Below, one piece after another: positions 3,041 through 56,960 of a stretch of 64,000 nucleotides of DNA (the stretch's first letter is position 1; each line of letters opens with the position of its first letter). Made by a program: the position numbers and the translations under genes. This DNA is from Siphonodentalium dalli (lineage: Eukaryota > Mollusca > Scaphopoda > Gadilida > Siphonodentaliidae): contig CP136063.1 in the NCBI GenBank assembly GCA_032622095.1, forward strand, positions 145,505,379-145,569,378. The letters are read 5' to 3'. The notes under the pieces are model-generated. The model saw only the letters and a list, made by a program, of their open reading frames with translations. It ran no database searches and had not been told where the DNA came from.

Positions 3041-3053
3041 TCAAGTGAGTTTA

Positions 3054-7370: not shown

Positions 7371-9816
7371 ATCCTCTAATCCTCATCTTTTGCATCATTT
7401 GTATATTTCACACCGGGTCCTACCCGCGGCGGAATGTCATAACCTTCAAAATGATGTATTACAAGCTTGTGTGTGGTCCCGATGGACTAAATTTTCTGAA
7501 ATCGGTTCCGTCCGCTCCATGCACTATAGGCACACGCTGGTAAATTTTACTTGCTATCATTATCATCGTTATGATTTCGTTGGGATTCTCACATAACATT
7601 TAGAAAATTGTGAGGAGTTTGATGCTGATTGAAGAATCCCGTGATCGTGGCGTATACCGTACACGAAATTTCAATTCCCGGTATACTGCACCGTTATACT
7701 GGTAGTTCGAGTTTCCTTTGGTCTTCACATGTCTGATAAAACGTATACACATCCCATTGTACTGCTTTGATATCCATATATATTTCAAATATCTGGAAAT
7801 ACATCTATATTATAGACACATTGTCAAGATATAACCGATGTCGTGCGAATAATGACTACCTAGTTCCATCGCCATATATTCCCTTGATTATACACTGCAA
7901 ACAGTACGCTCATATTGGTTCCGAATTAGGGTTAGTTTGGTTCTTTTGTGCAACTGAAATATGGCCGCTCAGTCATGCAGGAAAACAGACTTTAATGTTC
8001 ACTCTATTTGTTTTACCCAGACGTAAACGACCAGACATAAACACAATTATGTCAGAATTTGAGAAATATACCAGGCAAATCAAGAGGGTAGTCAAACTTA
8101 AAATGGCCGAAATTGTCACAAGCAAAGGCCGTTGATCCCTAATGAGTGGGGAAAGTGTATACAACGCACATAATTGATACAATGGTTATATTTTCTGGAT
8201 TAAATTTGGTATTTGTTAGGTCAATTTTGATAATGGTTTCAAAAATGGCCACCAAGACGGTGGCTTCGAGGCGCAAAACTCTTTGTACTAAATTTCAACA
8301 AATGACCCTTAGTTCATGAAATGCGATGCCACATTGGATGCAACAATAACATATTTACCAAACTAAGTCTTCATTCCGACATGAAATATGTTTGAATGAG
8401 GTATAATGAAGAAAGTCATTTGCTTGAATGAATGTGATCATGTCATACATAACATGGTCGTTGAGACTCGATTTTGAGGTGAACCTAGAACAAATTGTCG
8501 AAAAGCTGCTTTTGGTGTCATTTTGTCGGGCATAATGTGGGGAGCAATTATTATATCCAAAATCCGCTGAAATCCGCTTTGGTGGGAAATTTCAACTGCC
8601 CTTTGAGATAGGGTCGTATTTATGGCTTTTTGTGACAATTTTGCTGTTCCTTATTAGTCTAGCCAATTTGATGGAAAGAAACACCCAACCGTGATCAAAT
8701 TGCTATGTAATGTCTTGGTGTTTTTGAATGTGACTACACCCATATAATAACATAACCAAAATCACCATGAATCCCAGGGTGGGAAAGTCGTCAATTTAGG
8801 TTCAAAAGTCAGGAATATGTAAAAAAAAATTGTAATTTTCTGGTTGATACTGTTTAAGGTGAACATATACTAAATTGATCAGAAGCTTTTGTGTTATTTT
8901 CGGGCAGAATCTGGGGAACAATATATCCTAAATTCGCTTTGGGGGAAATTTTCTACATATCTTTGAAATAGGGACTTTTTATGGCTTTTTGTGTACATTT
9001 AACAAACTTCCAACCGTGAAAAAACTTGCTATATGACTTTTGGTGTTTTTGAATGTGACTATACTCATATAATAACAAATCCAAAATCCCCATGAATTCC
9101 AAAATGGGAAAGTCGTTAATTTTGTGTCACTGAAAAGACTGGGGAAAAAACGGGAAAATTGGAATTCTGTTAGTAAACAAAGCTGCAAACCATAAACACT
9201 CAGTCGAGTCCCCTGACTGCCAAATGTGACCAAATAATAACGTATCCAAAATTGCCATGCGTTGCATGAAGGGAAAGTCGTTAATTTTGGATAAAATGAA
9301 AAAGAAATATGTAAGAAAATGGTGAAAATTGGAAGTTTTGTCCGGGAACCAGGTTGGCCAACGGGCACCAAGAATGGGGCCCCAGTATTAAACTTGATTC
9401 ATTTTGTTGTTGGTTAGGATGTCTGCTCAAAGAACTTCGACGATAACACGTGGCCGTGTATGTGCCAGGCAATATGGCGGAGTGCACTATCAATCACTTC
9501 AATGTCCTCTAAATTGATTAATGTGAAAGACACCTGCAACAAAAAACGAATTATTCTTGTTGCCATATTATATGCCTGCCATTTCGTACATAATATGACT
9601 CAAAACCTATAAAATGGCGAATCCCAATCCGTTATAATAAGTCATATCCCGAGGATTTGACAATTCGGTGTCTAAATAATTTTTAAATTGACAAAGAAAA
9701 TGGAAGTAGGAAGTGAACAATTGAAGTGTTTTATTTCTTTGTTTTTTTTAACTAAATTTTACGATATCAAATAATGTATAGCCAATATGTAGTCATATAT
9801 GTCATCTTACGAATTT

Positions 9817-12002
9817 CCAAAGCCACCAACTAGTTTCATAATACATCAAAGGAGTGTCCCAAACCATATACAGAGTTACAAAACCCATTTAGTATCCAAA
9901 AGCCAACATGTGAGTATCCCAATCCATACGATGGTGGCCCCAAAAGGTAGTGCCCCAAACAATACTCAACTGGCGTCACAACCCAGACATAATTTATAGT
10001 CCTCCAAACCATGTATCTGGTATTCCAACCCACCCAAAATGACTGACCCAAACCACCAAATGAGTGTCTCAATCGACCCAATCCATTCAACGAATGTTTC
10101 CAACATTTTCAACCGATGTTCGAAACCACACAGGTGTCCCAAACCATCATACAGGTGTAAAAAACTATCCAATGAGTGTCCATAACCATCGAATGAGTAA
10201 AACAAACCATAAGATGAGAACCCATCGAGTGTTTCAAACCACTCAGTCAGTGCCCCAAACCACACAATTGGTGTGCCAAGGTAACCAAACCATCCATCGA
10301 GTGTCCGAACTCACACGAGTGGAAGACATCCAATATGTACGCCATGCCATGCACACAACTAATATACGGTGAGTGTCACATGTCATACAACATACAACTG
10401 TCGTCTCAATCTATTCGACTATAGTGTCCCAAACAGTGACCGAGTCGGCCACACAGTGTCTCAAATGCACATAAACAGTGTCTAAAATCTATAGCGAGTG
10501 TCACAAACAACTCAATATGAACAAAACACCCACCAAATGAGTGTCTCAATCGACCCAATCCATTCAACGAATGTTTCCAACCTTTGCAACCGATGTTCGA
10601 AACCACACAGGTGTCCAAAACCATCAAACATGTGTCAAAAACTATCCAATGAGTGTCCATAACCATCGAATGAGTAAAACAAACCATAAAATGAGAACCC
10701 ATCGAGTGTGTCAAACCACTCAGTCAGTGCCCCAAACCACGCAATGGGTGTACCAAGGTAACCAAACCATCCATCGGGTGTCCGATCACACACGAGTGGA
10801 AGACATCCAATAGGTACGCCATGCCATGCACACAACTAATATCCGGTGAGTGTCACATGTCATACAACATACAACTGTCGTCTCAATCTATTCGACTATA
10901 GTGTCCCAAAACAGTGATCGAATCGGCCACACAGTGTCCCAAATTCACATAAACCGTGTCTAAATTCTATAGCGAGTGTCACAAACCACTCAATATGAAC
11001 AAAACACCCAATCGGTGGCCCAAAACCATCCAACTGAAGTCACAAATCACCAAGCGGGTGACCCAAATCATAAAACTAACTACCAGCTGTCACCTCAATA
11101 CATCTACAATAGTGTACAAAACCATCCGAGTATTTTAGACGATCAAGTGAGTTTATAGGATAGGATAGGATAATTTATTTACAATATACACATGAATAAT
11201 ACAATGACAGTAACATATAATAATATAAATGCTGTATATATTGTTGGGGGTTAGCCTAGCCCTATCGGGCTGTCTTCCTGCTACCCCCTAAAACAGGTAT
11301 CACTATAATTATTTGCATCGATGGCTTGTATTTGTATCCACGCATACGTATCGGTTTATCAAACCATCCAATGAGTTTACCAAAACATGGTTTGATATAT
11401 TTGATGGATGGTTTTGTACACTAGTTTGGGCCACTCGTTAGATGGTGTGGGACATTCACTCTGTGGTTTGAGACACTAGTTGGACGTTTTAGACACCCCT
11501 GGTGGTTTGAGACAATCATCGTGGTGCTTGGGAAGCTCATTGGATGATTATGGACAATCGTCTGTTGGTTTGGGACACCAATTGGATGTTTATGATACAC
11601 AGTTGATGGTCTGGGACACCCGTTTGTGTGGTTGCGACACCACGTGCATGAATTGGGACACTCGATGAGTGACATATGACAATCGTTAGATAGTAGATGG
11701 TATGGAACACACATTGGACTGGTTTTGGGCACTATTTGGATGTTTTGTGACACTATTTCGGTGGACTGTGTTACATATTATGTGGTTTTGGGACACCAGT
11801 CTAGTTGGCTAATTTGCGACGCCAGTTCTATGGACTGGGACACACAAATTAATTTGGTATATTATTAAGCAGGTGGTTGAGACACATGTTGCGTGGTCTT
11901 ACGCTCCTTAGATGGTTTCGGACAACGGTTAAGTGGTTTTGGACACTCATTGGATGTATTTCGATACTAGTTTGGTTGCTTTGGACACTCATCAAATTAT
12001 AG
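9817..12002. repeat. Second copy of the opposed minisatellite
   Basis: This is the same structure as 1715-3900, shifted by 8,102 bp. The forward arm is 9817-11142, the retroposon-like tail 11156-11302 and the reverse arm 11360-12002. No sequence difference from the first copy was noticed. Confidence 0.9.
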
Positions 12003-14154
12003 TCGGCATGAGATGATTTAGTTACAAATCAATGACAAAATTTTAATTTTTGACTTTCGATCCCAATTTTCGGCGCCATTTTGGGACACTGTAGGGACAA
12101 CTTCTCGACACAAAGCTCTTTATTATCAGATTAGGATCCGACATCATTTACTGTGGTGCTAGCCACTATATCAACAAATTTCGTCTAAATGGAAACAATC
12201 TGGTGAACTTTAGAGAAAATGACCCTATTTTACTACTTTCGGTAGCCATTTTGTCCCTATTTTGGGAAGTGATGGCCTCATTTCTGCTAAAATGGGCACC
12301 ACTTGTTCATATTTGACATCTAATGAGTATTATTCTGGGCATTAAAATAATAATTGATGTTTCTTCGAAATTTAGTACATCTATTTCGAATTTGAGGAAC
12401 ACTGAAGGGCCCAAATTCCCAGACCAAAATTCTTATAAATGGAATTTTACCACTTTCGGTCGCCATTTTGTCCACGATTTTGAATTTTGACAATGGGATT
12501 GTACACGAAATGACATACGTCTGTCATGACAACAATAATAATTTGTTTATGTTGCATGTTCCTGCCAGTGCCATCTGTATATATAACTTTAATTTAAATG
12601 TCATTCAAGTGTATATTTCATAAGGAAAATCATACATAAAAACCACAAAATAAATTATCCCAAAAGCGGATTTTAGATATCTTGTTCCGCAGATTCTGCC
12701 CGACAAAACGACACCAAAAACAGTTTGTCAACAAATTGTTCTAGTTCCAACGCTTGAACGACCAGACTAGTAACACAGATAATGTAGTAATAATAATTTG
12801 ACGTGAAAACATGTTTGTTCTGTGAATGGACCTCTCTATATATGCATGTATACCAGTCATGAAACAATGAAGGAAAGAATTTTCAAAGCTTTTTGGTCTA
12901 ATCAAATCAAAAAGTATAGAAACACTTGCGACTACAAGATGGACAGATAAACTATTTTTGGATTTGATAGTAATAAATGTTCTCTCTCGGCTTTGTTGAT
13001 CTGCAGCGCCCGTGATAACTGTTGTCATTAGACGTGGTATAAGATCGTCACATGTTTGGCAGTTATGCTGCAAAACTCCAAACAAATGGCATGAGCGATC
13101 ATTGATGTTAATGGACTATTAATGGACTCTTTATTTTAAACAATAATGTTGGCAATGAATATGGCAACCAGCGGCTCAGGGAAAATTAGTCCATGGATTA
13201 TAGCGACAGTGAATTTGATTCTTTGTCCATATTACTACGGAAGGTGATCGATAATCAGAAAAATGAGTTGACTTTATAATACTCATTCATTGTTCTATTG
13301 CGAATCAGAAATCTACCATAGTCCTAGTAATATGAGAACATAGGCATAGTTCTTCCTTGAATTTTAACCGCTTTTGACACATTGTATGGTCGTGGTACGC
13401 GTAATGACGGGTTAATCGGGAATAAATTGGTAAAGAAGCGATTTTGGTGTAAAACAAAAACGCAGGAGAGTCCTCGGTATAACATATCTAAAATCCGCTT
13501 TGGGAAAACTTTGTTATCCAAGATGGCGTCCAACATGGATGTCTATATTACATCAGTTCTCGAAATAAGTCATTATACGATATATTGTGTCACAGGAATT
13601 ACAAAATTATGCCATTCTGTGTGGAATTGTAGTACGAAAGCGAATAGAGTGACACGGACAGAAACAAATACAACCGCGAACATGAAATGGCTGTCAAAAT
13701 GGCCGCAACTCCAAGCCATACCACGACGAAAGCAACATATTAGATAACCACATAGGATCTAAAATAGGTATTGGTAATCTTCAAGTATGTTGTTAAATAT
13801 CTTTCAAGGTACACAGCTCAATAAAACAGGTCCACCTGAAGGATTTACCAGCCACTGCAACGCAAGTCAAACCCAATGATTTACGTATTTAAATTTCGGG
13901 TTTTCTGCTTAGAATACATCGAACAGTCGCCAAAAATAGTAATTTCGGGCATGCGACACACAAAGTAATGTTTAGCCACACAGTGCGTGGTAATTTCATT
14001 CGGCGTGATGATTAAATGCATAAATGGATTCACGGATTCACACACTTTGTTTAATTATTCTGCCGGTCAAAATCAACCCCAATCGATCTTCAAGTCATTT
14101 CTTAATTAAAGATGTTATTTCAATGTTGTTTCACTCAATGGGCTATTTATTACT

Positions 14155-17100
14155 CCCTCTGGTGTATTCTGTGAATGAGTTTTTGACGTGTGATATGACA
14201 TAGGAGTTATGGGCAAATGTGATTATAAATGTACTTGGGTATTTTCGTACTCGAACCGTGTAACGAAGATCGACAATTGTGGTCTGCTTATTATTCTGCA
14301 TGCTATATCTCATGTATTATTCAGTTGCATATAGTGTAATAATGGTACTTTGGTATACAACACCATTTTACTTTACTAACAAGGGACGTACTTGAAAAAT
14401 GCGAACCGGTTAGACTTTTTGTAGGTCGATGTATGTATTCGCGTGCGGATGTATCTTCGCGGATGTCTCATTGTTGCAGTATGTAATGTTTATGACCGCA
14501 TTAATGACAATTGGCGGAATGGGGTGGAAAGCTGAACAGAATGACAATCTACTGAACAGAATGTGAAATTGCTCTGGACGGCCGATATATCCAGGAATAT
14601 GGCACGAAGAGGACTCATTTTGGTGTCTGACGAAAGGCCGATATTCTTCCCAACCAAATATATTAACCACTGACCAGACAACAGACGTTTCATTACAAGC
14701 TACAAAGCAGGGTTCAGTCCCATCGCTACGCTTTGTCTGAACGTTGCCGGCATGTGTATTTTCTTAATTAAATCTAACATCTAAATCTAAAGTGCTCTGT
14801 CAGTTACAATTTATTCTGGCCTGATCTGGACAATTTTCAGTTTCTCAGAATAACGCAGAATGAATTGTAACCTACAAAAATCTCAAATAAATAAATGTGA
14901 CATTTCTTCACATTACGTGTAGGTGCGGGCAGCGGTAAGCCATGCATAGGGGACTGAACTCCTGAGCTTGGTTTCATTGTTCGATCGACGAGTGCATGAC
15001 TGACCTACCATCAAATTGTCGAAAATCAAGGCTGCGGAATTGTATTTTGCAGCGATAAAGTCATTCCCAATAGCAAACGTTGTATTAAAATGAAGTTTAG
15101 CTTCTATTGCACAACATCATTCGACCGAAGGGGTTGTTTTTGTTTAGAGACCGATTAACCCTCTGGTGTATTCTGTGAATGAGTTTTTGACGTGTGATAT
15201 GACATAGGAGTTATGGGCAAATGTGATTATAAATGTACTTGGGTATTTTCGTACTCGAACCGTGTAACGAAGATCGACAATTGTGGTCTGCTTATTATTC
15301 TGCATGCTATATCTCATGTATTATTCAGTTGCATATAGTGTAATAATGGTACTTTGGTATACAACACCATTTTACTTTACTAACAAGGGACGTACTTGAA
15401 AAATGCGAACCGGTTAGACTTTTTGTAGGTCGATGTATGTATTCGCGTGCGGATGTATCTTCGCGGATGTCTCATTGTTGCAGTATGTAATGTTTATGGC
15501 CGCATTAATTGCTTTCGATATTTAGGTGTGAACCATGGCTGATAAGTCTCAAGAGTGTAAGTAAATAATTCGAGACATGACAATTGGCGGAATGGGGTGG
15601 AAAGCTGAACAGAATGACAATCTACTGAACAGAATGTGAAATTGCTCTGGACGGCCGATATATCCAGGAATATGGCACGAAGAGGACTCATTTAGGTGTC
15701 TGACGAAAGGCCGATATTCTTCCCAACCAAATATATTAACCACTGACCAGACAACAGACGTTTCATTACAAGCTACAAAGCAGGGTTCAGTCCCATCGCT
15801 ACGCTTTGTCTGAACGTTGCCGGCATGTGTATTTTCTTAATTAAATCTAACATCTAAATCTAAAGTGCTCTGTCAGTTACAATTTATTCTGGCCTGATCT
15901 GGACAATTTTCAGTCTCTCAGAATAACGCAGAATGAATTGTAACCTACAAAAATCTCAAATAAATAAATGTGACATTTCTTCACATTACGTGTAGGTGCG
16001 GGCAGCGGTAAGCCATGCATAGGGGACTGAACTCCTGAGCTTGGTTTCATTGTTCGATCGACGAGTGCATGACTGACCTACCATCAAATTGTCGAAAATC
16101 AAGGCTGCGGAATTGTATTTTGCAGCGATAAAGTCATTCCCAATAGCAAACGTTGTATTAAAATGAAGTTTAGCTTCTATTGCACAACATCATTCGACCG
16201 AAGGGGTTGTTTTTGTTTAGAGACCGATTAACCCTCTGGTGTATTCTGTGAATGAGTTTTTGACGTGTGATATGACATAGGAGTTATGGGCAAATGTGAT
16301 TATAAATGTACTTGGGTATTTTCGTACTCGAACCGTGTAACGAAGATCGACAATTGTGGTCTGCTTATTATTCTGCATGCTATATCTCATGTATTATTCA
16401 GTTGCATATAGTGTAATAATGGTACTTTGGTATACAACACCATTTTACTTTACTAACAAGGGACGTACTTGAAAAATGCGAACCGGTTAGACTTTTTGTA
16501 GGTCGATGTATGTATTCGCGTGCGGATGTATCTTCGCGGATGTCTCATTGTTGCAGTATGTAATGTTTATGGCCGCATTAATTGCTTTCGATATTTAGGT
16601 GTGAACCATGGCTGATAAGTCTCAAGAGTGTAAGTAAATAATTCGAGACATGACAATTGGCGGAATGGGGTGGAAAGCTGAACAGAATGACAATCTACTG
16701 AACAGAATGTGAAATTGCTCTGGACGGCCGATATATCCAGGAATATGGCACGAAGAGGACTCATTTAGGTGTCTGACGAAAGGCCGATATTCTTCCCAAC
16801 CAAATATATTAACCACTGACCAGACAACAGACGTTTCATTACAAGCTACAAAGCAGGGTTCAGTCCCATCGCTACGCTTTGTCTGAACGTTGCCGGCATG
16901 TGTATTTTCTTAATTAAATCTAACATCTAAATCTAAAGTGCTCTGTCAGTTACAATTTATTCTGGCCTGATCTGGACAATTTTCAGTCTCTCAGAATAAC
17001 GCAGAATGAATTGTAACCTACAAAAATCTCAAATAAATAAATGTGACATTTCTTCACATTACGTGTAGGTGCGGGCAGCGGTAAGCCATGCATAGGGGAC

Positions 17101-17307
17101 TGAACTCCTGAGCTTGGTTTCATTGTTCGATCGACGAGTGCATGACTGACCTACCATCAAATTGTCGAAAATCAAGGCTGCGGAATTGTATTTTGCAGCG
17201 ATAAAGTCATTCCCAATAGCAAACGTTGTATTAAAATGAAGTTTAGCTTCTATTGCACAACATCATTCGACCGAAGGGGTTGTTTTTGTTTAGAGACCGA
17301 TTAACCC
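14155..17307. repeat. Triplicated ~1.0-1.07-kb tandem repeat
   Basis: There are three head-to-tail units: 14155-15158 (1,004 bp), 15159-16231 (1,073 bp) and 16232-17307. Each starts CCCTCTGGTGTATTC and ends ACCGATTAA before the next CCC. The first unit lacks 69 bp present in the other two (around 15508-15577) and differs from them by a few substitutions; units 2 and 3 look identical. The first 56 bp (14155-14210) are also the last 56 bp of the 8.1-kb unit. Each unit holds an imperfect hairpin (14803-14818 with 14856-14871 in unit 1). The minus-strand frames of 60-90 codons resemble nothing I recognise. Confidence 0.93.
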
Positions 17308-20675: not shown

Positions 20676-21101
20676 CAAAATTATGCATGTTGTGAAAATG
20701 TTCTTAGTCGAAAAATGGGACTAACTCCACACAAAAAAAGTCGGACAGACGTCATAATCGCAGGTGCACAGGTTCCCATGGTACTAAATATCAGTGCCAA
20801 GATTAAAAAACATTGACCTAAAAATGTAGGAATAAAAGCTCAGACAAAATTATGCATGTTGCAAAAAACAATTCTAAGTTGAATGAAAAAGGGGGCTAAC
20901 TCCACCAAAAAATAATCGGACAGACCTCATAATCGCAGGTGCACAGGTTCCCAAGGTACTAAATATCTGTGCCAAGTTTCAAAAATATTGACCAGAAAAT
21001 GTAGGAATAAAAGCTCGGACAATATTGTGTTCACGGACGGACGGACAAGCTGATTCCAGTATACCCCCCACAACTCGTTGCGGGGGGGGGTATAAAAACT
21101 G
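20676..21101 (+). mobile_element. Tandem-core element with G/C-run terminal hairpin
   Basis: It has two core units about 169 bp apart (AATTATGCATGTTG at about 20679 and 20848). Each holds a TAGTCGAAAAATGGG-like or AAGTTGAATG segment, a GTCGGACAGAC segment and CATAATCGCAGGTGCACAGG. The 3' end is GGACGGACGGACAAGC followed by a hairpin of GTATACCCCCC against GGGGGGGGTATA (about 21059-21095). The same core without this end appears at 34830-35030. Confidence 0.6.
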
Positions 21102-21219
21102 GGGCCATGTATGGTGTCTACATGTTTGTGTACTGTTTGCGTTCACAGTATGTGCTAAACAAGAGGTGGGATTTTGTCAAAAATCCTGGCTTGCGATCTC
21201 ATATTAGGTACTAGCCATG

Positions 21220-21808
21220 TGACGTTGTCCATTTGCACAAAAAATAATAAACAAAGTTCAATAACTCTGCTGAAAATATCCGGCCGGACCTGGTTTGCGA
21301 ACTCGTTCTAGATACTGGTCATGTGAACTCATATACCAAAAATCTTTGAAATCCGTTGACATTTGTGTAAATGAGCCCTGGACGTCGTCTATTTGCTATT
21401 TGGTAAATTCGACAAAAATAATAAACAAAGTCCAATAACTCCAGTAAAAATATCCAGCCGGACCTGGCTTGCGAACTCATTCTAGGTAATGGTCGGGTGA
21501 ACTCATATACCAAATATCTTTGAAATCCGTTGAGATTTGTGGAAATGAGCCCTGTGACGTCGTCTATTTGCTATTTGGTAAATTCGACAAAAATAATAAA
21601 CAAAGTCCAATAACTCCGGTAAAAATATCTGGCCAGACCTGGCTTGCGAACTCATTCTAGGCAATCGTCAGGTGAACTCATATACCACAAATCTTTGAAA
21701 TCTGTTTACATTTGTTCAAGTTATGACTCTTACAAATTCGGGATGGACGGACGGACGGAACCCATTACTATATCCCCCGCAAATTTAAAATTTGGCGGGG
21801 GATAAAAA
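21220..21808 (+). mobile_element. Tandem-core element, three ~175-bp units, terminal hairpin
   Basis: The landmark AAAATAATAAACAAAG occurs at 21241, 21415 and 21590. Each unit continues with TCCAATAACTC, a GGCC(G/A)GACCTGG segment, TTGCGAACTC and TCATATACCA. The end is GGACGGACGGACGG, then TATCCCCCGC (21771-21780) paired with GCGGGGGATA (21795-21804). Open frames in the array come from the repeat. Confidence 0.65.
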
Positions 21809-35665: not shown

Positions 35666-37616
35666 CGTGAGAGGATCTATTGGGCAAGGCTCTGCCGAGT
35701 CCAACCGATGCCAAATCCCCAAAGCGGACATAAACAGTTATTCGCTCAATATAAAGCAGCACAACCTACCAGATGCATTCGGTGAGTTCTTCTCCAAGAA
35801 AATCAAAGATATACACTCTGAATTAGATTCATCCAACCTTGAATCAGATTACGACACCTTCATGGGAGAAACTTTCTGTGAATTTCAACCTGTCACCAGC
35901 GATCAACTGAGAAGAATAATTCTTTCATCACCACCCAAGTCATGCCAGTTAGATCCACTCCCAACTAGTCTTATTATCAAACACATTGATGTCATGATCG
36001 AACCACTGACAAAACTGATAAATTCATCTCTTAAGGAAGGACAAGTGCCACCAAGTTTTAAAGAAGCGTTAGTCATTCCACTGATAAAAAAGAAGTCTTT
36101 GGATCCTAACGTACTCAAGAACTACCGCCCAGTTTCAAACCTGCAATTCATGTCAAAGATTTTGGAGAAGGCTGTTCTATTCCAACTGAAAAAGCACATT
36201 GACAACAATAACATGTGGGAGCCGTGTCAGTCCGCTTATCGTGTTGGACACAGCACCGAGACAGCTCTGATTCAAATTACATCAGATCTACTGACAGCCA
36301 GCGATAAGGGTCTAGTGTCTATTCTTTGTTTATTAGATCTGAGTGCAGCTTTCGACACTTTGGACCACAGGATTCTCCTGAAACGACTCGAAATTTCTTA
36401 CGGCATCTCTGGCAATGTTTTGAAGTGGTTCGAGTCATATCTCACAAATCGTCAACAGACAATTCTCATCGGTAGTGAAAGTTCTGAACCCTACCCAATT
36501 GATTATGGTGTTCCACAGGGATCTGTTCTTGGACCTATTCTATATCTACTTTATACTAGGCCCATCGGTTCTCTTATTCGCTCCCAAGGAATTAATGTTC
36601 ACATGTATGCAGATGACACTCAATTATACCTCTCTGGTGATCCGAACGACGAAAGCAGTCTGGTTAGCAGAATCAGAAATTGTATTCTAATAGTCAAAGA
36701 CTGGATGACTTCAAACCGCCTCAAGCTAAATGACGACAAGACTGAAATCATCTGGATAGCAAAACCATCAATAGTAAACAACGTGCGTACCACCAAGCTA
36801 GAACTGGGTGATAGTTCCATCGTCTTCTCGAATAATGTGAAAAATCTGGGCGTCCATCTTGACCAGACTCTCTCCATGACGAAACAAATAGACTCTCTCT
36901 GTCAGTCCATATTTATTGAACTCCGCCGACTAGGACGAATTAGACAATACCTCACCACTGAAGCAGCGAAAAGACTGACAGTATCTTTTGTTCTGACAAG
37001 AATGGACTATTGCAATGCACTGTTGTTCCGAGCCCCAGACTACCAGCTTCGGCGAATACAGCGTCTGCAAGACTGTGCTGCAAGAATCGTGTGTAGGTTG
37101 AAGAAAGGCAATAGTCCAACCACCATGAGATCACAACTACATTGGCTGCCTATTCAGGATAGAATTTCTTTCAAAATTGCAACATTCGGATATAAACGTT
37201 TAAAGAATTCAGAAACCGCCCCTACTTACATGAAAGAGCTCATTTCTCCTTATGTGCCAACAAGAAATGTTCGATCGAAGGATGCAGGCCTACTAACACC
37301 AAAAGGCGCCAACCTGAGAACTGTTGGAGATCGCGCATTTTGTGTTTCATGTCCGTTCACCTGGAATTCCTTACCACAACCCATCAGAGAATCGCCATCA
37401 TTCGGAGAATTCAAATCAACACTGAAAACATATTTGTTCGAGCGGAGGTATCGAGACATTTTGAACCTTCAACGATGACATTCTGTACATTCTGTATATA
37501 TCACTGCATTTTCTCTTTTTCTCTCTATATATTTGAAACAAATCATGTGAAGCGCCTAGGGCCCATCATCACGGGGATAGGCGCTATACAAGAACAATTA
37601 TTATTATTATTATTAT
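35666..37616 (+). mobile_element. 5'-truncated CR1/L2-like LINE with target duplication
   Basis: The insertion is bounded by the 7-bp direct repeat TAGCTAC at 35659-35665 and 37617-37623. It starts abruptly inside the coding frame, with the endonuclease and ORF1 missing. It runs through an intact reverse transcriptase frame and ends in a 138-bp 3' UTR. Near its end the UTR has an 8-bp perfect stem, AGCGCCTA (37551-37558) with TAGGCGCT (37578-37585), then an (ATT)n tail. A 3' stem-loop plus microsatellite tail and 5' truncation are the normal result of target-primed reverse transcription by CR1/L2-group elements. The intact frame suggests a young insertion. Confidence 0.9.
35667..37478 (+). 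CDS. LINE reverse transcriptase (5'-truncated ORF2, CR1/L2-like)
   Basis: RNA-directed DNA polymerase of a non-LTR retrotransposon; it copies the element RNA at a nicked target. Counting from 35667, the fragment has 603 residues. Visible motifs in order: NYRPVSNL at 152-159, LLDLSAAFDTLDH at 222-234 (catalytic Asp 224), GVPQGSVLGP at 281-290, MYADDTQLYL at 313-322 (catalytic Asp pair 316-317), a WMTSNRLKLNDDKTEI thumb-side motif at 346-361, NLGVHLD at 393-399, then the usual CR1/L2 C-terminal domain with HWLPI at 492-496 and FTWNSLP at 564-570. The first codon is GTG where the element is cut, so this is no real start; the AP endonuclease domain that normally precedes is absent. There are no internal stops. 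It cannot move on its own. The clade assignment (CR1/L2 group) is by motif style. Confidence 0.93.
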   Translation: MRGSIGQGSAESNRCQIPKADINSYSLNIKQHNLPDAFGEFFSKKIKDIHSELDSSNLESDYDTFMGETFCEFQPVTSDQLRRIILSSPPKSCQLDPLPTSLIIKHIDVMIEPLTKLINSSLKEGQVPPSFKEALVIPLIKKKSLDPNVLKNYRPVSNLQFMSKILEKAVLFQLKKHIDNNNMWEPCQSAYRVGHSTETALIQITSDLLTASDKGLVSILCLLDLSAAFDTLDHRILLKRLEISYGISGNVLKWFESYLTNRQQTILIGSESSEPYPIDYGVPQGSVLGPILYLLYTRPIGSLIRSQGINVHMYADDTQLYLSGDPNDESSLVSRIRNCILIVKDWMTSNRLKLNDDKTEIIWIAKPSIVNNVRTTKLELGDSSIVFSNNVKNLGVHLDQTLSMTKQIDSLCQSIFIELRRLGRIRQYLTTEAAKRLTVSFVLTRMDYCNALLFRAPDYQLRRIQRLQDCAARIVCRLKKGNSPTTMRSQLHWLPIQDRISFKIATFGYKRLKNSETAPTYMKELISPYVPTRNVRSKDAGLLTPKGANLRTVGDRAFCVSCPFTWNSLPQPIRESPSFGEFKSTLKTYLFERRYRDILNLQR

Positions 37617-38211: not shown

Positions 38212-39793
38212 ACAAGACAGTCAATGACTGTGGAGTCGCTCACCTGACTGTAAAGACTGAAAGACTCCGAAGACTACAAGAGTTAGTACTTTAAAATAAG
38301 TAGTTAGAGCAAATACATTCAGCTTAGCAATTAAATTAAAGTGTTCACACTGACATACATACTTATTCTTAATTCAATTACTTTGAGTGCAGAGTATTAA
38401 ATCTGCAATGTCTGCCCCTTCTTGAATAACCAATCTCATTTGAACAAACCTCATACCAGTACAAGATGCAGATGTTGACATTATGTGCACCATATGTGTA
38501 CATGTGTTGGAAGACAAAACATTGTATTGTAAATGAAAGTGTCAATGACACTGTAGCTCAACTTGGAAAGGGAATAATTTAATGTGTTACTGTCGATGGA
38601 GTGATTAGGAATGTGGAAAGTTGAATGTCTAATACATGAAGAGAGATATACATACATGTATATAAAAGTAAAATCTAAGATGGTTGCTGGCGGCTATGTT
38701 TTCCAACAATTCAAAAACATTTGATAGCTTTAGTCATGCAGAGTAGAATCCAAGATGGCCGCTGGCAGCCATGTTTTAATGTTGAATAACCCCAAGATGA
38801 CTCGTTCCCATCTACATGTCAATGTCAAAAGTCAAGACAAATTTCATAATGATCGGACCAAAGGTACGACCTGTAGCCCGTGCCAAAGAATTTAGTCATG
38901 CAAAGAGTAAAATCCAAGATGGCTGCTGGCGGCCATGTTTTTTGGCCGAATGACCCCAAAATCACTCGTTCCCATCTACATGTCAATATTAACATCCATG
39001 ACAAATTTCATGACAATAAGACGAAGAGTACGGCCTGTAGCCCGTGCTAATGGATTTAATTTTGAAATCCAGGATGGCCGATGGCGGCCATGTTTTTTCC
39101 CCGAATGACCCCAAAATGACTCGTTCCCATCTACATGTCAATGTCAACATCCATGACAAATTTCATAATAATCGGACCAAAGGTACGAACTGTAGCCCGT
39201 GCTAAAGGAAATTGTTGACGAATCACACACGCATACACGCACACACACACAGATGACGGATACCAAGCCATGGCAATAGCTCAAACTTTACAAAGTAAAG
39301 TTGAGCTAACAATAACAAACATCAGCAGATTTTTAAAAAATCTGAAATGTGTATGCTATCAGAAACTGATTCTACAGGTAGGTCATACACAAATTTAAAT
39401 GTTAAAACAGAAGGATAAACAGACAAATGGTATGAAAGGTTTTAAATAACCACACCGATCATGTGAGCTTAATGAAACTTTATCCTCATCAGAAGCCAGG
39501 ATATAACTTTTTAAAGAGTTATGTCCCTGGCTCTGCCCCTATTTGAACCAGTCACCCCGTTTCTGAACCCCAGTCAGCCAAGGACCCTCCATACCAAATA
39601 TAAGCTAAATCGGCTCAATGGGTCGTAAGAAGAAGTTGTTCTAAGAATTACTATGGAGGAATAGAGTTATGACCCTGGTTTCACAACTAATTGACCTGGT
39701 GACTTCATTTTGGAGAAGAAGACGATTCTTGATGGACGGATGGACGACGGACAAGGAGTGATGACTATAGCTCCTACGTCTCAGGTGAGCTAA
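38212..39793 (+). mobile_element. Tandem-core hairpin element (family S1), copy 3
   Basis: The 5' module matches 25791 onward. The right part resumes at about 39310 and follows the same order of blocks as copy 1, through GGAGTGATGACTATAGCTCC to the terminal GGTGAGCTAA (CTAA at 39790-39793). The middle is occupied by a second element (38529-39309). Comparison with 25915-25960 shows the undisturbed arrangement. Confidence 0.65.
38529..39309 (+). mobile_element. Tandem-core hairpin element (family S2), nested
   Basis: Its 5' end has TAGCTCAACTT near 38554. This is complementary to the 3' end, where AGCTCAAACTTTAC and GTAAAGTTGAGCTAA form a hairpin closing in CTAA (39306-39309). Between them are three to four ~158-bp units with AATCCAAGATGGC.GCTGGC, ACTCGTTCCCATCTACATG and a CCTGTAGCCCGTGC segment (landmarks near 38749, 38911 and 39066). 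Subterminal inverted repeats, a 3' hairpin, a tandem core and CTRR match the published layout of Helentron-associated elements. A second copy is at 58640-58951. Confidence 0.65.
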
Positions 39794-48315: not shown

Positions 48316-49385
48316 TCTCATATATATTTTGAAGACCTCTGTTTGTTTGTCTGTCTGTCTGTATGTCTGTCATTAATACAAATCTACGATTCTCGACCGA
48401 TCGAGACGAAACTTGGTACGTGTGTGTAGTTTGACCGGGCGGTGGACGTTGTCGTATTGGCGAGCCCGTGCGGCGCCCGCTTCGCGCATGCGCAGACGAG
48501 ATCTCGGAAACGGGTGGAGCTATCGACTTGAAATTTGCTATGTGAATGTATCTTGCCCCGGATGCGAATTTTATCGGGTCGCCGAGCCCGTGCGACGCCA
48601 GCTTCGCGCATGCGCAGACGAGATCTCGGAAACGGGTGGAGCCATCGACTTGAAATTTGCTATGTGAATGTATCTTGCCCCGGATACGAATTTTATCGGG
48701 TCGCCGAGCCCGTGCGACGCCAGCTTCGCGCATGCGCAGACCAGATCTCGGAAACGGGTGGAGCTATCGACTTGAAAATACGAATTTTATCGGTGCGGCG
48801 CCCGCTTCGCGCATGCGCAGACGAGATCTCGGAAACGGGTGGAGCTATCGACTTGAAATTTGGTATGTGAATGTATCTTGCCCCGGATACGAATTTTATC
48901 GGGTCGCCGAGCCCGTGCGACGCCAGCTTCGTGCATGCGCAGACGAGATCTCGGAAACGGGTGGAGATATCGACTTGAAATTTGGTATGTGAATGTATCT
49001 TGCCCCGGATACGAATTTTATCGGGTCGCCGAGCCCGTGCGACGCCAGCTTCGTGCATGCGCAGACGAGATCTCGGAAACGGGTGGAGATATCGACTTGA
49101 AATTTGGTATGTGAATGTATCTTGCCCCGGATACGAATTTTATCGGGTCTCCGAGCCCGTGCGACGCCAGCTTCGCGCATGCGCAGACCAGATCTCGGAA
49201 ACGGGTAGAGCTATCGACTTGAAATATGTGAATGTATCTTGCCCCGGATGCGAATTTTATCGGGTCGCCGAGCCCGTGCGACGCCAGCTTCGCGCATGCG
49301 CAGACCAGATCTCGGAAACGGGTAGAGCTATTGACTTGAAATTTGGTTTTTGAATAGCCCGGACAACGTCGGGCTCATCGGCTAG
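48316..49385 (+). mobile_element. Helitron-like element HelA-1 with eight ~122-bp monomers
   Basis: It starts TCTCATATATATTTTG after a host A (48315). A TCTG/TTTG microsatellite and a unique ~110-bp leader follow. Eight head-to-tail monomers then come, mostly 122 bp (landmark TTCG.GCATGCGCAG at 48481, 48603, 48725, 48806, 48928, 49050, 49172 and 49289; one is cut to 81 bp, one is 117). The end is AGCCCGGACAACGTCGGGCT (a hairpin with one bulge), then CATCGG and CTAG (49382-49385). The 5' TC, 3' hairpin and CTRR are Helitron hallmarks. The next element starts with no intervening base. Open frames in both directions are periodic by-products of the array. Confidence 0.8.
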
Positions 49386-49808
49386 TCTCATATATATTTT
49401 GAAGACCTCTGTTTGTTTGTTTGTCTGTCTGTCTGTCTGTCATTTATACAAATCTACGATTCTCGACCGATCGGGACGATACTTGGTACGTGTGTGTAGT
49501 TTGACCAGGCGGTGAACGTTGTCGTATTGGCGAGCCCGTGCGGCGCCCGCTTCGCGCATGCGCAGACGAGATCTCAGAAACGGGTGGAGCTATCGACTTG
49601 AAATTTGCTATGTGAATGTATCTTGCCCCGGATACGAATTTTATCGGGTCGCCGAGCCCGTGCGACACCAGCTTCGCGCATGTGCAGACGAGATCTCGGA
49701 AACGGGTGGAGCTATCGACTTGAAATTTGCTATGTGAATGTATCTTGCCCCGGATACGAAGTTTATCGGGTCGCCGAGCCCGTGCGACGCCAGCTTCGCG
49801 CATGCGCA
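48481..49808. promoter_or_regulatory. Repeated NRF-1-like palindromes in the HelA monomers
   Basis: Each monomer carries a version of CGCGCATGCGCA. This fits the animal NRF-1 consensus YGCGCAYGCGCR in eight of eleven monomers; the ones at about 48930, 49052 and 49675 carry a single change. Whether a factor binds here is inference, but the spacing is regular and the CpG content is far above the surrounding DNA. Confidence 0.45.
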
Positions 49809-49915
49809 GACCAGATCTCGGAAAAGGGTGGAGCTATCGACTTGAAATTTGGTTTTTGAATAGCCCGGACAACGTCGCCCGGACAACGTCGGGCTCATCG
49901 GCTAGTCTATTATAT
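49386..49915 (+). mobile_element. Helitron-like element HelA-2 with three monomers
   Basis: It starts TCTCATATATATTTTG directly after the CTAG of HelA-1. It has the same leader and three 122-bp monomers (landmarks 49551, 49673, 49795). The terminal hairpin segment is partly doubled (CCCGGACAACGTCG twice) before CTAG at 49912-49915. Confidence 0.8.
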
Positions 49916-50350
49916 ATTTTGGAAGATCTGTGTGTGTGTGTGTGTCTGTGTAGTCCAGGAGATCGGGGGGTAGTGCTGCTCATATTGACGGACAAGCTGC
50001 GACCATGTTATTTTTAATGTTTCATGTATGGTAATGAAGAAAAATTATGATAGCAAGAACAAATTTGTAGCCTTCTTCGTTTTTTTTTTTGCGAATTTTT
50101 GGCATTTTTTAGCCCAAATTTTTTTTCAATTTAGTATGATTTTGGTGATTAAGTTGAATAGTAATTGTGTTAATAATGTTAAATAACTAATCGTGCTAAA
50201 AAAAATTGAAGAATTTAAAAAAAATTTAAATTTTTTACCATTTAATTTTTTTTTTAATGCAAAATCGTCCAAATTGCAACCATTTCATCTTAGTATGATT
50301 TTAATGGTTAAATTCGCCATTAATTATTTTAATAGTGTTAAATAATTTAC
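49916..50350 (+). mobile_element. Third, divergent Helitron-like 5' end joined to HelA-2
   Basis: TCTATTATATATTTTGGAAG begins immediately after the preceding CTAG and is followed by a GT/CTGT microsatellite and GTCCAGGAGATCGGGG. The 49950-50005 segment occurs in reverse orientation at 53350-53427. Downstream, AGTATGATTTT..TGGTTAA and GTGTTAAATAA recur at about 50133 and 50293, amid long A and T runs. No CTRR end was located, so the right limit is approximate. Confidence 0.5.
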
Positions 50351-51410
50351 AATTTGTCTTCTGCAATGTTTTTAAATGGATTTAAGAAGGTTTCTACTTG
50401 TTTTCTAAGTTGAGGGGGGTCTAATTCAAATCCAATTAAACATTGAACTGTTCAAAATTAGATCAATTTCTTAAGGCGTATGGTAGATATACGTAACTAG
50501 TTTTCAAAACTTATACATATGCCTTTCTATCATGTGCGTTATGCACGCGAGTCGGATTTTACAAATTAAATTATGATGAAAAACCCTGAATTTTGGGTGT
50601 GATCACATTTGTGGTCATAATATTCCAATTAGAGAGTGGATGGACATGGGGCATGCGACACTGTGCAGTATATATGTATATGACAAGCATGACATGAGAT
50701 ATTAGTATCTTTCTACTAAACTGTGCTTCCAGAGTTATCAGGAATAGAGTATCGGTGTTATTTCTTACCCAAATAAATTTTAAAACGGGGTATGTGGGTT
50801 AAAGGACCGCTGGGAGATAATAGGATGTCCAATGACTCCTATATTTCTATCGTATCACAGTAAAGCTGTTTTTGTAAAATTGGCGCGGTTTACACGATCA
50901 AAGTTCGATTTTCTTTACAATATGTTACAAGCAACTAATTATATAGAGTTACGCTTCTTGAATTTGTGTAGGGAAACTCGAGTCAGCATAACAAAAAAAT
51001 CTGGCTGCTGATTGGTTGATTATCATTGAGGGAAATATGGAAGGGGTCTGGATATTTTTATGCTGCTGATTTATGTGCAGTAAATGGAGTAGTTGTAGAA
51101 ATGCAAGATTATCGTTTGAAAAAAAATACCGAAAGGTGCGCGTTTGTTGTCACATACTGGTGCAACGGATGACGTTCTAAGGAAAAATTGACCACTTGAA
51201 GTTCAAATAGGCTTAACCCATGGCCGGAGGGACTTTTAGTTAACACTGTCATCTATGGAAAATAATTAGGTGTTTGTAACCTATAGATACGAAGCTTCGG
51301 TACATTAATTATTATTCATATATTACTATATTTAAATCAGACGTATGCATACAGTCGGTGTCGAAACAAAAACACGAATGTACCGATTATTCGTGACATT
51401 CAAGTTAAAT
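50350..51410. other. Stretch without recognised genes
   Basis: AT-rich sequence with short frames only. One CGAAGCTTCG palindrome (51290-51299) links it to the duplicated module that follows. Confidence 0.4.
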
Positions 51411-51569
51411 GTTCAATAATAGAAAATTATACTGTGACTGCTCCATTCATCATGTTAATCAAGGTGTATCGTTATTAATAACAGTATACAGTAATATCGA
51501 AATAAGAAGAATCACGTGGCCCTGGGTACTTATCCCCCAGCGCTGTGGCAAACAAATTGACAATGTATT

Positions 51570-52225
51570 CTTAAACCCAAACCTGTGGCGGTTTTTCATC
51601 CAATGTACCGAAGCTTCGTGCCATGTACCGAAGCTTCGTGACGTGTCAGAACTCCAGGAATATACCACCACAGGACATCATATGGCACCGATAACAAACG
51701 TTGAATGGTGACCAGAAACCCGGATATTAATAATTTCAGATCATAATTAGCATCGATATTAACCCATCGAGGAATATGTCATAATGACACACTATATTAC
51801 ACCCACCCCTATATAACTGCCCCCTCTCTGACACAGGGCTACATGTAAGAAGATTATCGATGTCTACTTAATGAGACTATACAGTTCCGTCAAAATCTGG
51901 TGAAAAATGTGACCTCGCATCGTTAACCCCAAATCTGTGGCGATTTTTCATCCAATTTACCGAAGCTTCGTGACACGTACCGTCAAATGGCATCAGACGT
52001 TGAATGGTCACCATAAACTGCGATATCAGTCATTTCAGATCGTAACTATCATAGAAATATATATTAATCCATGGTGTAATTATATCAAAATGACACACTA
52101 TATTACACCCACCCTATATAACTGCTTTACTTCAGCCCTGACACAGTGCTACATACAAGACGTTTATCCATGTCTACTTAATGAGAGTATACAGTTCTGT
52201 CAAAATCGGCCGAACAATTTGGTCT
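51570..52225 (+). repeat. Duplicated ~310-350-bp module with TATA box and CGAAGCTTCG palindromes
   Basis: Two diverged tandem copies share, in order, CTGTGGCG(G/A)TTTTTCATCC, ACCGAAGCTTCGTG, ACGTTGAATGGT, AATGACACACTATATTACA, CCCACCC(C)TATATAACTGC, a GACACAG.GCTACAT segment and TGTCTACTTAATGAGA. TATATAA lies at 51810-51816 and 52115-52121. The 10-bp palindrome CGAAGCTTCG lies at 51609, 51629 and 51961 (also 51290). A core TATA element with a conserved flank in two copies suggests a duplicated promoter or LTR-like region, but no dependent gene is visible. Confidence 0.6.
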
Positions 52226-52449
52226 ATAAATGCCGCAGTGTGACACATTTAAGATAGACCAAAACAATAAACACCTTTCAACCCAAAGATAGTTACATTT
52301 TAATTGAAAAAATAGTCCAAGCATGAAAAGTTTATTTTTGCCGATATTTAAGTCAAGTTTTTGAGAGAATAGTCCAATATTTTTGGTGATGTCAGTGGTG
52401 ACAATAGTAACAATTAACCATGGTACATCAGACATGTTAGTATTCAATG

Positions 52450-52990
52450 TATAGAAGGCAGAATAGCCAATTTTGTACATCATCCACAACTTGTAATCGA
52501 TTGCAGGACATGCTGGGGCAATATTTACCATTTTCCATATTTTGGCAGCCATTTTGGCAGCCATTTCGGCCAAAGTAAGAATTTTGGGTCCATTGAGTTG
52601 GAATATTCATAAGTAATCATGTGCATCACTTACATTTCAAAGTTATGTTCATTTCTTGTTAAAATATGACTAGAATCCCAATTGTGATGTTTTTGTGTGA
52701 AATTGTATACCGCATTCTGTAAATTCGTATTTTTGAGGGAAGGGGTAATAGGACCCCAAAAAGTGCATATTGAATTGCCCCAATGATCAGTTAATATACA
52801 AAATACAAAATAAAGTCACATTACTCAACCTGTTCCAAACAGCATGAATCGATCTAGAAGATATTTGTAAAAAGTTATATTTTCAACTTCCGGCGGCCAT
52901 TTTGGTGGCCATCTTGGATGGTGAGTTTCAATTTTGCCCCAAAAAAGTGACATTATGTCTTACCTTCACGAAAATATATACATTTGTATA
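52450..52990. repeat. Dispersed repeat R, copy 2
   Basis: Homologous to 19430-19907. This copy is longer, with GGCAGCCATTTTGGCAGCC and CGGCGGCCATTTTGGTGG inserts and an uninterrupted right side. It shows what the first copy looked like before the Helitron-like insertion at 19908. Confidence 0.7.
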
Positions 52991-53430
52991 CATTTTACAA
53001 GATTGTTACCGCTATAATTTGCATAAAACTGACTTAGAATCTGGTCTGAAAAACAGCGGCCATGATGGACGCCATTTTGACTGGAGTCTATATGGCCACT
53101 TTTTTTTCTTGTTAACATTGCTTAAAAGTTGAAGGACATAATAAGGAACAAAATGAGTGGGGAGAAGTTAAGTCCCAAGGGGTGCAAGGGTGCCAATATT
53201 AGCTCCCGGAATACTAGTAGTACTATGACGTCGCCGGAAAATTCTTCTATTTTCGGTCGTCGGGGTAGGTCAATAAAAACATGTTTTTCGCCAATTAAGC
53301 TACAAATTCACCACTGCTATCATGGATTTTCGTAATCTACATATATTTTACTACAAAATTAGACTGGATAGCACTTGTCCGTCAAAATGAGCAACATTTG
53401 TTATTTCTTGGGGTCGATCTCCTGGACTAG

Positions 53431-54125
53431 TGTGTCTGTGTGTGTGTTCGCGATGGACTCGAAAACGGCCGACCCGATTTCGATGAAACTTGGTATGTGT
53501 GGGTATTTTCGGCCGAGAACTGGCATAGGCCTATTAATTTGTCCGTGCGACGTGACCTTGACCTTGAAATCGGGTAATTTCAAGGTCAAACGCCCGAATA
53601 TCACGGTATTTCGATGAAACTTGGTATGTGGAAGTATTTTCGGCCGTGGGGTGGCATGGCCCTATTAATTTGTCCGTGCGACGTAACCTTGACATCGGGT
53701 CATTTCAAGGTCAAACGCCCGAATATCACGGGATTTTGATGAAACTTGGTATGTGGGGGTCCTTTCGTATGGGGAGTCTCATAAACATATTCATTTGCCC
53801 GTGCGACGTGACCTTGAAATCGGGTCAATTCAAGGTCAAATCGACAATTTTTATGGGATTTCAACGAAATTTGATACATGGGGGTACTTTTGTCAACTGA
53901 GTGTTTTGGACGGGTCAAATCGTGACCCCGACCTGGCCTTGACCTTCAAAAGGATAAATTCAAAGTCAAATCGGGTAAAACCGGATGGATTTCGACGGGC
54001 ACGTTTGTCCGGTACTTTTGTCCGGGCAGTGTTTTGGACTGGTCAAATCGTGACCCCACTTGACCTTGACCTTCAAAATGGACAATACAAGGTCAAAGCC
54101 CGGACGAAGTCGGGTCACCTTCTAG
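53431..54125 (+). mobile_element. Helitron-like element HelB-1 (5' end lost)
   Basis: Core units of about 125-131 bp (GAAACTTGGTATGTG at 53485, 53616, 53741) alternate with TTGACCTTGAAATCGGG / TTTCAAGGTCAAA blocks. The end is GCCCGGACGAAGTCGGG hairpin, then CACCTT and CTAG (54122-54125). The 5' end is replaced at a GT-rich run by an inverted fragment of the 49916 family (53350-53427). Confidence 0.7.
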
Positions 54126-54586
54126 TCTATTATATATTTTGGAAGATCTGTGTGTCTGTCTGTGTGTTCGCGATGAACTCGAAAACGGCCCACCCGATTT
54201 CGATGAAACTTGGTATGTGGGGGTATTTTCGGCCGGGGACGAACATAGGCATATTAATTTGTCCGTGTGACATGACCTTGACCTTGAAATCGGGTCATTT
54301 CAAGGTCAAATTTTTATGGGATTTCGACGAAATTTGATACGTGGGGTTACTTTTGTCCACTGATTGTTTTGGACGGGTCCAATCGTGACCCCGACCAGAC
54401 ATTGACCTTCAAAATGATAAATTCAAGGTCAAATCGGGTAAAACCGGATGGATTTCGACGGGCACGTTTGTCGGGTACTTTTGTCCGGGCAGTGTTTTTG
54501 GACTGGTCAAATCGTGACCCCACTTGACCTTGACCTTCAAAATGGACAATTCAAGGTCAAAGCCCGGACGAAGTCGGGTCACCTAG
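54126..54586 (+). mobile_element. Helitron-like element HelB-2
   Basis: It begins TCTATTATATATTTTGGAAG directly after the preceding CTAG and ends at CTAG 54583-54586 after the same CCCG..CGGG hairpin, here without the TT of the other copies. It is 461 bp, shorter because it has fewer core units. Confidence 0.8.
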
Positions 54587-55156
54587 TCTATTATATATTT
54601 TGGAAGATCTGTCTGTCTGTGTGTCTGTCTTGTGTGTTCGCGATGGACTCGAAAACGGCCAAACCGATTTCGATTAAACTTGGTATGTGGGTGTATTTTC
54701 GGCCGGGAACTGGCATAGGCCTATTAATTTCAAGGTCAAACGCCGGAATATCACTGGATTTCGATGAAACTTGGTATGTGGGGGTACTTTCTTATGGCGA
54801 GTCTCATAAGCATATTCATTTGCCCGTGCGACGTGACCTTGACCTTGAAATCGGGTAACTTCAAGGTCAAATCGCCAATTTTGATGGGATTTCGACGAAA
54901 TTTGATACTTGGGGTTACTTTTGTCAACTGATTGTTTTGGCGGGTCCAATCGTGACCCCGACCAGACCTTGACCTTCAAAATGATCAATTCAAGGTCAAA
55001 TCGGGTAAAACCGGATGGATTTCGACGGGCACGTTTGTCAGGTACTTTTGTCCGGGCAGTGTTTTTGGACTGGTCAAATCGTGACCCCACTTGACCTTGA
55101 GTTTCAAAATGGACAATTCAAGGTCAAAGCCCGGACGAAGTCGGGTCACCTTCTAG
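54587..55156 (+). mobile_element. Helitron-like element HelB-3
   Basis: TC start abuts the CTAG of HelB-2; its own CTAG is at 55153-55156. It is 570 bp. The ordering of GACCTTGACCTTGAAATCGGG-type blocks (motif class, not exact) is the same as in the neighbours. Confidence 0.8.
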
Positions 55157-55855
55157 TCTATTATATATTTTGGAAGATCTGTGTGTGTGTGTGTCTGTCT
55201 GTCTGTAATTGATGGACTCAAAAACGGCCGAGACGATTTCGATGAAACTTGGTATGTGTGGGTATTTTCGGCCGGGGAGTGACATGGGCCTATTAATTTG
55301 CCTGTGCGACGTGACCTTGACTGTGAAATCGGGTAATTTCAAGGTCAAACGCCCGAATATCACGGTATTTCGATGAAACTTGGTATGTGGGTGTATTTTC
55401 GGCCGGGGAGTGGCATAAACCTATTAATTTGGCCGTGCGACGTGACCTTGAAATCGGGTCATTTCAAGGTCAAACGCCCGAATATTACGATGAAACTTGG
55501 TATGTGGGGGTACTTTCGTATGGGGAGTCTCATAAGAATATTAATTTGCCCGTGCGACGTGACCTTGGCCCTGAAATCGGGTCAATTCAAGGTAAAATTT
55601 TGATGGTATTTCGACGAAATTTTATTTGACTTTTGTCCACTGGGTGTTTTGGACGGGTCAAATCGTGACCCCGACCTTACCTTGACCTTCAAAATGATCA
55701 ATTCAAGGTCAAATTGGGTAAAACCGGGTGGATTTCGACGGGTACTTTTGTTCGGGCAGTGTTTTGGACGGGTCAAATTGTGACCCCACTTGACCTTGGC
55801 CTTCAAAATAGACAATTCAAGGTCAAAGCCCGGACGAAGTCGGGTCACCTTCTAG
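55157..55855 (+). mobile_element. Helitron-like element HelB-4
   Basis: TC start abuts HelB-3. The terminal hairpin and CTAG (55852-55855) are followed by a host T and unique sequence. It is 699 bp. This is the last member of the concatemer. Open frames through the array (up to 194 codons at 53753-54337) have periodic translations that track the repeat and are not genes. Confidence 0.8.
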
Positions 55856-56189: not shown

Positions 56190-56960
56190 TCGGGGAAAAA
56201 AGTTGGACGGTGGTATATTATTGCAACCGACCTATATACCAAATATCAATTGAATCCGTTAATATTTCATTGAGTTATCGCACTAACGGTGATAAAATTG
56301 TGATTAAAATAGACAAACTAAGACCCATAACTCCGCGAAAACAACTCGGACAAACCTGGTTTTCGAACTCGTCCGAGATATTGTTGCAGGAGACGCATAT
56401 ACCAAATATTGTTGAAATCAGTTAATATTTCATCGAGTTATCGCGCTAACGGTGATAAATTTGCTAAAAATAGACAAACTAAGACCCATAACTCTGCGAA
56501 AAAATTCGGACAAACCTGGTTTTCGAACTCGTCCGAGATATTGTTGCAGGAGACTCATATACCAAATATTGTTGAAATCGGTTAATATTTCATCGAGTTA
56601 TCGCGCTATCGGTGATAAGATTGCTAAAAATAGACAAACTAAGACCCATAACTCCGCGAAAATTTTTTGGACAAACCTGGTTTTAGAACTCGTCCGAGAT
56701 ATTGTTGCAGGAGACTCATATACCAAATATTGTTGAAATCGGTTAATATTTCATCGAGTTATCGCGCTAACGGTGATAAAATTGCTAAAAATAGACAAAC
56801 TAAGACCCATAACTCCAGAATTTTTTTTCGGACAAACCTGGTTTTCGAACTCGTCCGAGATATTGTTGCAAGAGTCTCATATACCAAATATTGTTGAAAT
56901 TGGTTATCGTGCTATCGGTGAAAAACTAAACTAAAAACCATCTAAGATGGATAACTCTTG
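56190..56960 (+). repeat. ~161-bp tandem array, four to five units
   Basis: AGACCCATAACTC recurs at 56321, 56482, 56642 and 56803 (161, 160 and 161 bp apart). A degenerate unit sits at each edge. Each unit contains GACAAACCTGGTTTT, GAACTCGTCCGAGATATTG, ATATACCAAATATTGTTG and TTATCGCGCTAACGG. The style matches the other tandem-core elements. A homopolymer of 15 C (57087-57101) follows after 130 bp. Open frames are repeat-derived. Confidence 0.85.

Follow-up and report, generated by a model that had tools for sequence, protein, structure and literature searches.

Helitrons in tandem are on record from bats, silkworm, rice, maize and Drosophila, where they are mostly put down to read-through or to circles (PMC4067079, PMC5148889, PMC5876387). 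Exact head-to-tail junctions like those described below occur in the Myotis lucifugus, Bombyx, rice and maize centromere arrays, which have been ascribed to terminator bypass or to rolling-circle amplification of one element (as cited in PMC4067079, PMC5148889, PMC5876387). Circles with joined ends are real intermediates of Helraiser transposition (PMC5876387), and Helitron circles also form in wheat (PMC13286980). Insertion has been considered as well: three tandem copies in Metarhizium were explained either by two 5'-end insertions or by rolling-circle replication (PMC5148889), and for two adjacent head-to-tail Helitrons in maize, Du et al. (2008) stated left- and right-edge options (PMC2267711). 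As at our locus, CTAG in the maize pair is followed directly by TC and the two units differ; consecutive insertion was inferred, and a model of A^T insertion at the 5' end of the resident element was proposed (PMC2267711). Distantly related Helitrons also lie side by side in bat and maize (PMC4067079), comparable to the mixed neighbours found here. Since the bat and maize reports, read-through and consecutive insertion have been debated mostly on single examples.

Here we describe a Helitron array in the scaphopod Siphonodentalium dalli, within a stretch of 64,000 nucleotides (hereafter the window; GCA_032622095.1, contig CP136063.1, positions 145,505,379 to 145,569,378, forward strand), together with its relatives across the genome (2.23 Gb in nine contigs). 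Tandem Helitrons are already known; what is new is their extent, the mixing of families and the sequence evidence that most neighbours are not sister copies, in contrast to the one-element origin ascribed to the arrays cited above. Whereas the maize case is a single pair whose insertion order was unsettled (PMC2267711), the two families described here, HelA and HelB, have about 12,900 exact junctions, which make the question countable through a sister test, insertion order and polymorphic intermediates.

One array of six units

Six Helitron-like units, two HelA followed by four HelB, form one array at 48316-55855 of the window, all on the + strand and with zero spacer:

48315, +: host A, left flank of the array (A^T target), read in the sequence
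48316-49385, +: HelA-1, non-autonomous Helitron-like unit of 1070 bp, 5'-TC...hairpin...CTAG-3', with about 8 internal repeats of ~122 bp
49386-49905, +: HelA-2, 520 bp, with about 3 internal repeats of ~122 bp and a 14-bp duplication before the 3' hairpin
49906-54125, +: HelB-1, unit of a second Helitron-like family, TCTATTATATATTTTGGAAGATCTG ... GGGTCACCTTCTAG, split by an inserted element
49953-53427, unstranded: inserted element within HelB-1, not an array member, with inverted ends GTCCAGGAGATCG/CGATCTCCTGGAC and TA on each side, read in the sequence
54126-54586, +: HelB-2, 461 bp, 3' end ...CACCTAG
54587-55156, +: HelB-3, 570 bp
55157-55855, +: HelB-4, 699 bp, final unit of the array, right flank TTAAATATAAAATTG

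The preliminary description of this locus had HelA-1 ending in a hairpin and CTAG at 49385 and HelA-2 starting with TC at 49386, no base between them, with an A (48315) to the left of the TC start at 48316, and all of this is seen in the sequence. Its next boundary, 49915/49916, has to be moved 10 bases to the left, to 49905/49906. A third TC end does exist there, but it opens a HelB unit (TCTATTATATATTTTGGAAGATCTG) and not, as had been thought, another HelA. Likewise, what were taken for two separate arrays are a single six-unit array ending at 55855, in which HelB-1 appears fragmentary because a 3.5-kb element with terminal inverted repeats (TIRs) interrupts it: the element begins about 45 bases into HelB-1, and HelB sequence restarts at 53430. 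No long open reading frame was noted in the TIR element.

The HelB units of the window are about 85-90% identical to each other, and the two HelA units are 97% identical over 462 bp. The greater divergence of HelB and the element gained by HelB-1 fit an older right side of the array, though they may reflect family age alone.

Anatomy and class of the two families

A HelA unit starts with TCTCATATATATTTTGAAGACCT and continues with a GTCT/GTTT microsatellite and about 110 bp of conserved sequence. Then come one to eight ~122-bp repeats, and the hairpin GCCCGGACAACGTCGGGC and the tail TCATCGGCTAG make up its 3' end. The terminal hairpin of HelA-1 has a 6-bp stem and an 8-nt loop, with a DNA fold of -6.4 kcal/mol (z -1.65); the short tail after it closes with CTAG. 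HelB units start with TCTATTATATATTTTGGAAGATCTG and end with GCCCGGACGAAGTCGGGTCACCTTCTAG.

Canonical Helitron-like ends and A^T insertion had been proposed for these elements, and the genome-wide data agree: 96% of the exact HelA and HelB 5' ends, which begin at TC, are preceded by A or by CTAG, and the HelA 3' end, in which CTAG comes shortly after the hairpin, has 18,344 exact copies in the genome. Insertion appears to be between A and T without target-site duplication, as the leftmost HelA unit in sampled arrays follows an A in 14 of 14 cases and the right host flank begins with T in 10 of 10. A TC start, a hairpin, a CTAG end and A^T insertion mark HelA and HelB, as judged from these ends, as non-autonomous canonical Helitrons rather than Helentrons. 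The HelA ends show no pair of sub-terminal inverted repeats of the Helentron/HINE (Helitron2) kind, and have CTAG and A^T insertion instead. We know of no Helentrons with CTRR ends. Helentrons insert into TT (PMC4067079). The Cg_HINE elements of Crassostrea gigas resemble the elements described here in that they are short and non-autonomous, carry satellite-like repeats internally and have a microsatellite on the 5' side, but they are of Helentron type with sub-terminal inverted repeats, whereas HelA and HelB have 5'-TC, CTAG-3' and A^T insertion (PMC7492417).

At window 48440-48453, some 125 bp from the 5' end of HelA, the motif GACGTTGTC is the reverse complement of the 3'-hairpin sequence GACAACGTC (49868-49881), and pairing between the two ends is possible.

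Zero-spacer junctions across the genome

The genome contains 16,295 exact HelA 5' ends, 7,552 (46.3%) of them after A, 8,127 (49.9%) after CTAG and 616 (3.8%) after other sequence. The 9,119 exact HelB 5' ends divide in a similar way: 3,978 (43.6%), 4,782 (52.4%) and 359 (3.9%), respectively. Seen from the other side, TC comes next in 13,950 (76%) of the 18,344 exact HelA 3' ends, with a HelA 5' end (TCTCATATAT) following in 7,070 and a HelB 5' end (TCTATTATAT) in 3,228. A search of the genome for junctions of CTAG with TC between family members, as the preliminary description had called for, returned 12,074 for HelA at up to 3 mismatches, of which 8,127 are exact; a control with reversed patterns returned 0, so the junctions are not due to chance. 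Judged by their 5' ends, roughly half of the copies are thus joined with zero spacer, in both families and across them, which bears out the earlier suggestion of a systematic process.

These counts bear on two further explanations. The 6,108-bp duplication at 100% identity elsewhere in the window could be a haplotype duplicate, and would thereby lend some colour to an assembly artefact, yet the exact junctions number about 12,900, belong to two families, lie in varied contexts and join neighbours too diverged to confuse an assembler, which makes such an origin extremely improbable. Alternatively, a chance HelA-HelB or HelA-HelA pair might move as one, its inner terminator being bypassed, so that a few founders were multiplied. 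Bypass of Helitron ends is documented (PMC5148889, in an excerpt citing Grabundzija), and such composite transposition would account for many mixed junctions without any targeting. However, in about ten mixed junctions sampled, the HelB sequence that follows the junction varies by locus, as do the HelA alleles that precede it, which speaks against a single founder pair, and we regard composite movement as very unlikely to be the main source of the arrays.

Junction spacings in a large HelA array at C1:31736873-31757836 recur 13.31 kb apart, pointing to duplication within the array, and successive HelB junctions at C1:63517955-63534489 (-) lie ~3.04-3.10 kb apart, as in a satellite-like higher-order repeat.

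Are neighbours copies of one template?

A multimer copied from one template would consist of units identical at birth, so that neighbours should share common subfamily alleles. We compared 49 HelA units whose core was clean, drawn from 17 arrays and the window, at seven subfamily sites, each with at least two common alleles; the 17 arrays all come from one contig and were picked for an exact HelA junction, and so constitute a biased sample. Distances were computed on clean modules, with the variable first repeats set aside.

Adjacent HelA pairs agreed at 0.66 of the subfamily sites (n = 29), as against 0.50 between arrays and 0.51 for non-adjacent units of the same array. The excess of 0.66 over 0.50 was reached in 0 of 5,000 permutations, and all seven sites were alike in 5 of the 29 adjacent pairs versus 2.6% of unrelated pairs. 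Adjacent units are more alike than random ones, so some of them are sisters. If the agreement of one-template copies is taken as 0.97, an assumed value of nearly 1, the sister share of adjacencies could be about one third (0.34, bootstrap 95% interval 0.17-0.51). Adjacent units in this sample are therefore sister copies in a minority of cases only, their agreement of 0.66 being set against 0.50 for unrelated units.

The window itself provides an example. HelA-1 and HelA-2 are 5.1% apart, the 37th percentile of unrelated pairs, and each has a closer relative on another contig: L004_971 for HelA-1 (2.8% apart) and L019_1947 for HelA-2 (1.7%). The 14-bp duplication before the hairpin of HelA-2 is absent from HelA-1 and recurs at another locus (L024_730). 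By these sequence comparisons, HelA-1 and HelA-2 are judged not to be sisters.

The preliminary description had offered rolling-circle read-through as one route to such joins: replication past the 3' terminator, or around a circle with joined ends, would give a one-template multimer inserted in a single step. It would yield exact CTAG/TC joins, a circle with this junction has been demonstrated for Helraiser (PMC5876387), and a few neighbours are near-identical (no differences between L026 units 2165 and 2581; identical 5' modules in L006 units 1507 and 2163). As the main route it is nevertheless unlikely, given that neighbours mostly differ in subfamily alleles, with full seven-site agreement in only 5 of the 29 adjacent pairs, that they vary in unit length and repeat number, that the HelA pair of the window is non-sister, and that thousands of junctions, the 3,228 HelA-HelB joins, unite two families.

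Unequal crossing-over or segmental duplication could instead have amplified a rare first junction. The adjacent sisters fit this, as do the C1 array at 31.737-31.758 Mb with its spacings repeated 13.31 kb apart and the HelB junctions in 3.04-3.10 kb steps at C1:63.52-63.53 Mb. But duplication makes sister units, which are the minority here; it is unable to create HelA-HelB joins at unrelated sites with differing HelB sequences; and the distinct closest relatives of the two units of the window pair are incompatible with such an origin. It seems quite unlikely that duplication accounts for most of the arrays.

Probable insertion at the left edge of resident Helitrons

Host flanks point to the kind of site that is used. 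Ten right host flanks all begin with T and are ~94% A+T over 12 nt (counted by eye); the background, taken behind typical AT steps of the window, is 67%. Left host flanks, at 66% A+T, are background-like. The preferred target is thus an A^T that leads into an AT-rich stretch, just as the 5' end of a Helitron itself offers. Among sampled 3' ends outside the selection criterion, a Helitron 5' end was abutted at offset 0 in 25 cases, versus 0 at an internal AT of a resident 5' end in the sampled loci (counts after by-eye correction of three rows: L001:1905 and L015:1356 were false 3' ends, and L001:3360 was host flank). Because internal AT steps were not hit in this sample, which is biased towards loci with a HelA-HelA junction, the exact 5' end seems to matter beyond base composition.

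We suggest that the arrays probably arise, in the main, as Helitrons insert serially into the A^T at a resident element's left edge, with local duplication or read-through contributing a minority. A new copy would insert, one event at a time, where the host A beside the resident's own 5'-TC presents a fresh A^T target with an AT-rich tract after it; the AT-rich 5' end of the resident would mimic the preferred host target, and the transposase may be directed to it. The newcomer would take the resident's orientation, leave no base between the two and recreate the target at its own left edge. The enzyme would presumably come from a RepHel Helitron elsewhere in the genome. Local duplication or read-through might supply the remaining third or so of adjacencies (17-51%).

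Repeated insertion at the junction had also been raised in the preliminary description, and it fits better than read-through, but the site was probably the left A^TC of the resident rather than the CTAG/T right edge named there. A copy arriving on the right would require a G^T target, whereas the host A and the resident's first T give exactly A/TC...CTAG/TC; from this we infer left-edge insertion, and hence the order in which units arrived. An alignment-based count of private sites, small in number, rose from the first to the last unit in most A-anchored arrays. By whole-unit k-mer privacy, the gradient predicted by left-edge insertion, from a young left to an old right, was not significant (8 of 13 A-anchored arrays, p about 0.09), and we set age gradients along arrays aside as evidence. 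No allele with an empty or half-filled insertion site was seen either.

More tentatively, and with some doubt on our part, integration in this lineage may be actively aimed at the 5' ends of resident Helitrons, of the same or another family, for instance if the site of the transposase's own 5'-end cleavage, A^TC, serves as the target. Were that so, each insertion would renew the target, and arrays would lengthen on their own, always towards the same side, and give rise to satellite-like DNA. If 5'-end insertion is confirmed, it would provide a target that renews itself with every insertion and a simple way for transposons to become satellite-like arrays, and tandem Helitrons would be no proof of rolling-circle replication.

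Candidate sources of the enzyme

The Helitron_like_N domain has at least 150 matches in the genome, and two scanned proteins carry a PIF1 helicase. Neither HelA nor HelB ends were present within 1.5 kb to each side of the Rep loci examined. The Rep at C1:13743912 has a HelA 5' end on its own strand at a distance of 3.8 kb; we rejected it as a HelA partner, as the region is dense in HelA and the proximity is likely due to chance. The ~70 kb at C1:13714967-13787159 (-), beside a Helitron Rep domain, are dense in HelA and HelB ends, and the exact ends listed there are all on one strand. Helitron Rep genes also occur as same-strand neighbours 8-12 kb apart (L044/L045/L046 and L041/L042/L052); the value for the local pair L044/L045, 99.2%, does not exceed the 99.35% between L045 and L046, a copy on another contig.

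Other features of the window

Positions 1-6108 and 8103-14210 are the two copies of the 6,108-bp duplication at 100% identity, which may be a segmental duplication of recent date or a haplotype duplicate left unpurged in the assembly. They are followed at 14504-17307 by tandem copies of ~1.07 kb with 99.7-99.9% identity. A 603-aa open frame with a YADD motif at 35667-37478 resembles, by eye, a non-LTR reverse transcriptase and is putatively assigned as such. Short satellite-like blocks at 56234-56906, 20710-21715 and 38729-39207 (units of 161, 175 and 155 bp, respectively) are perhaps further repeat-carrying elements.
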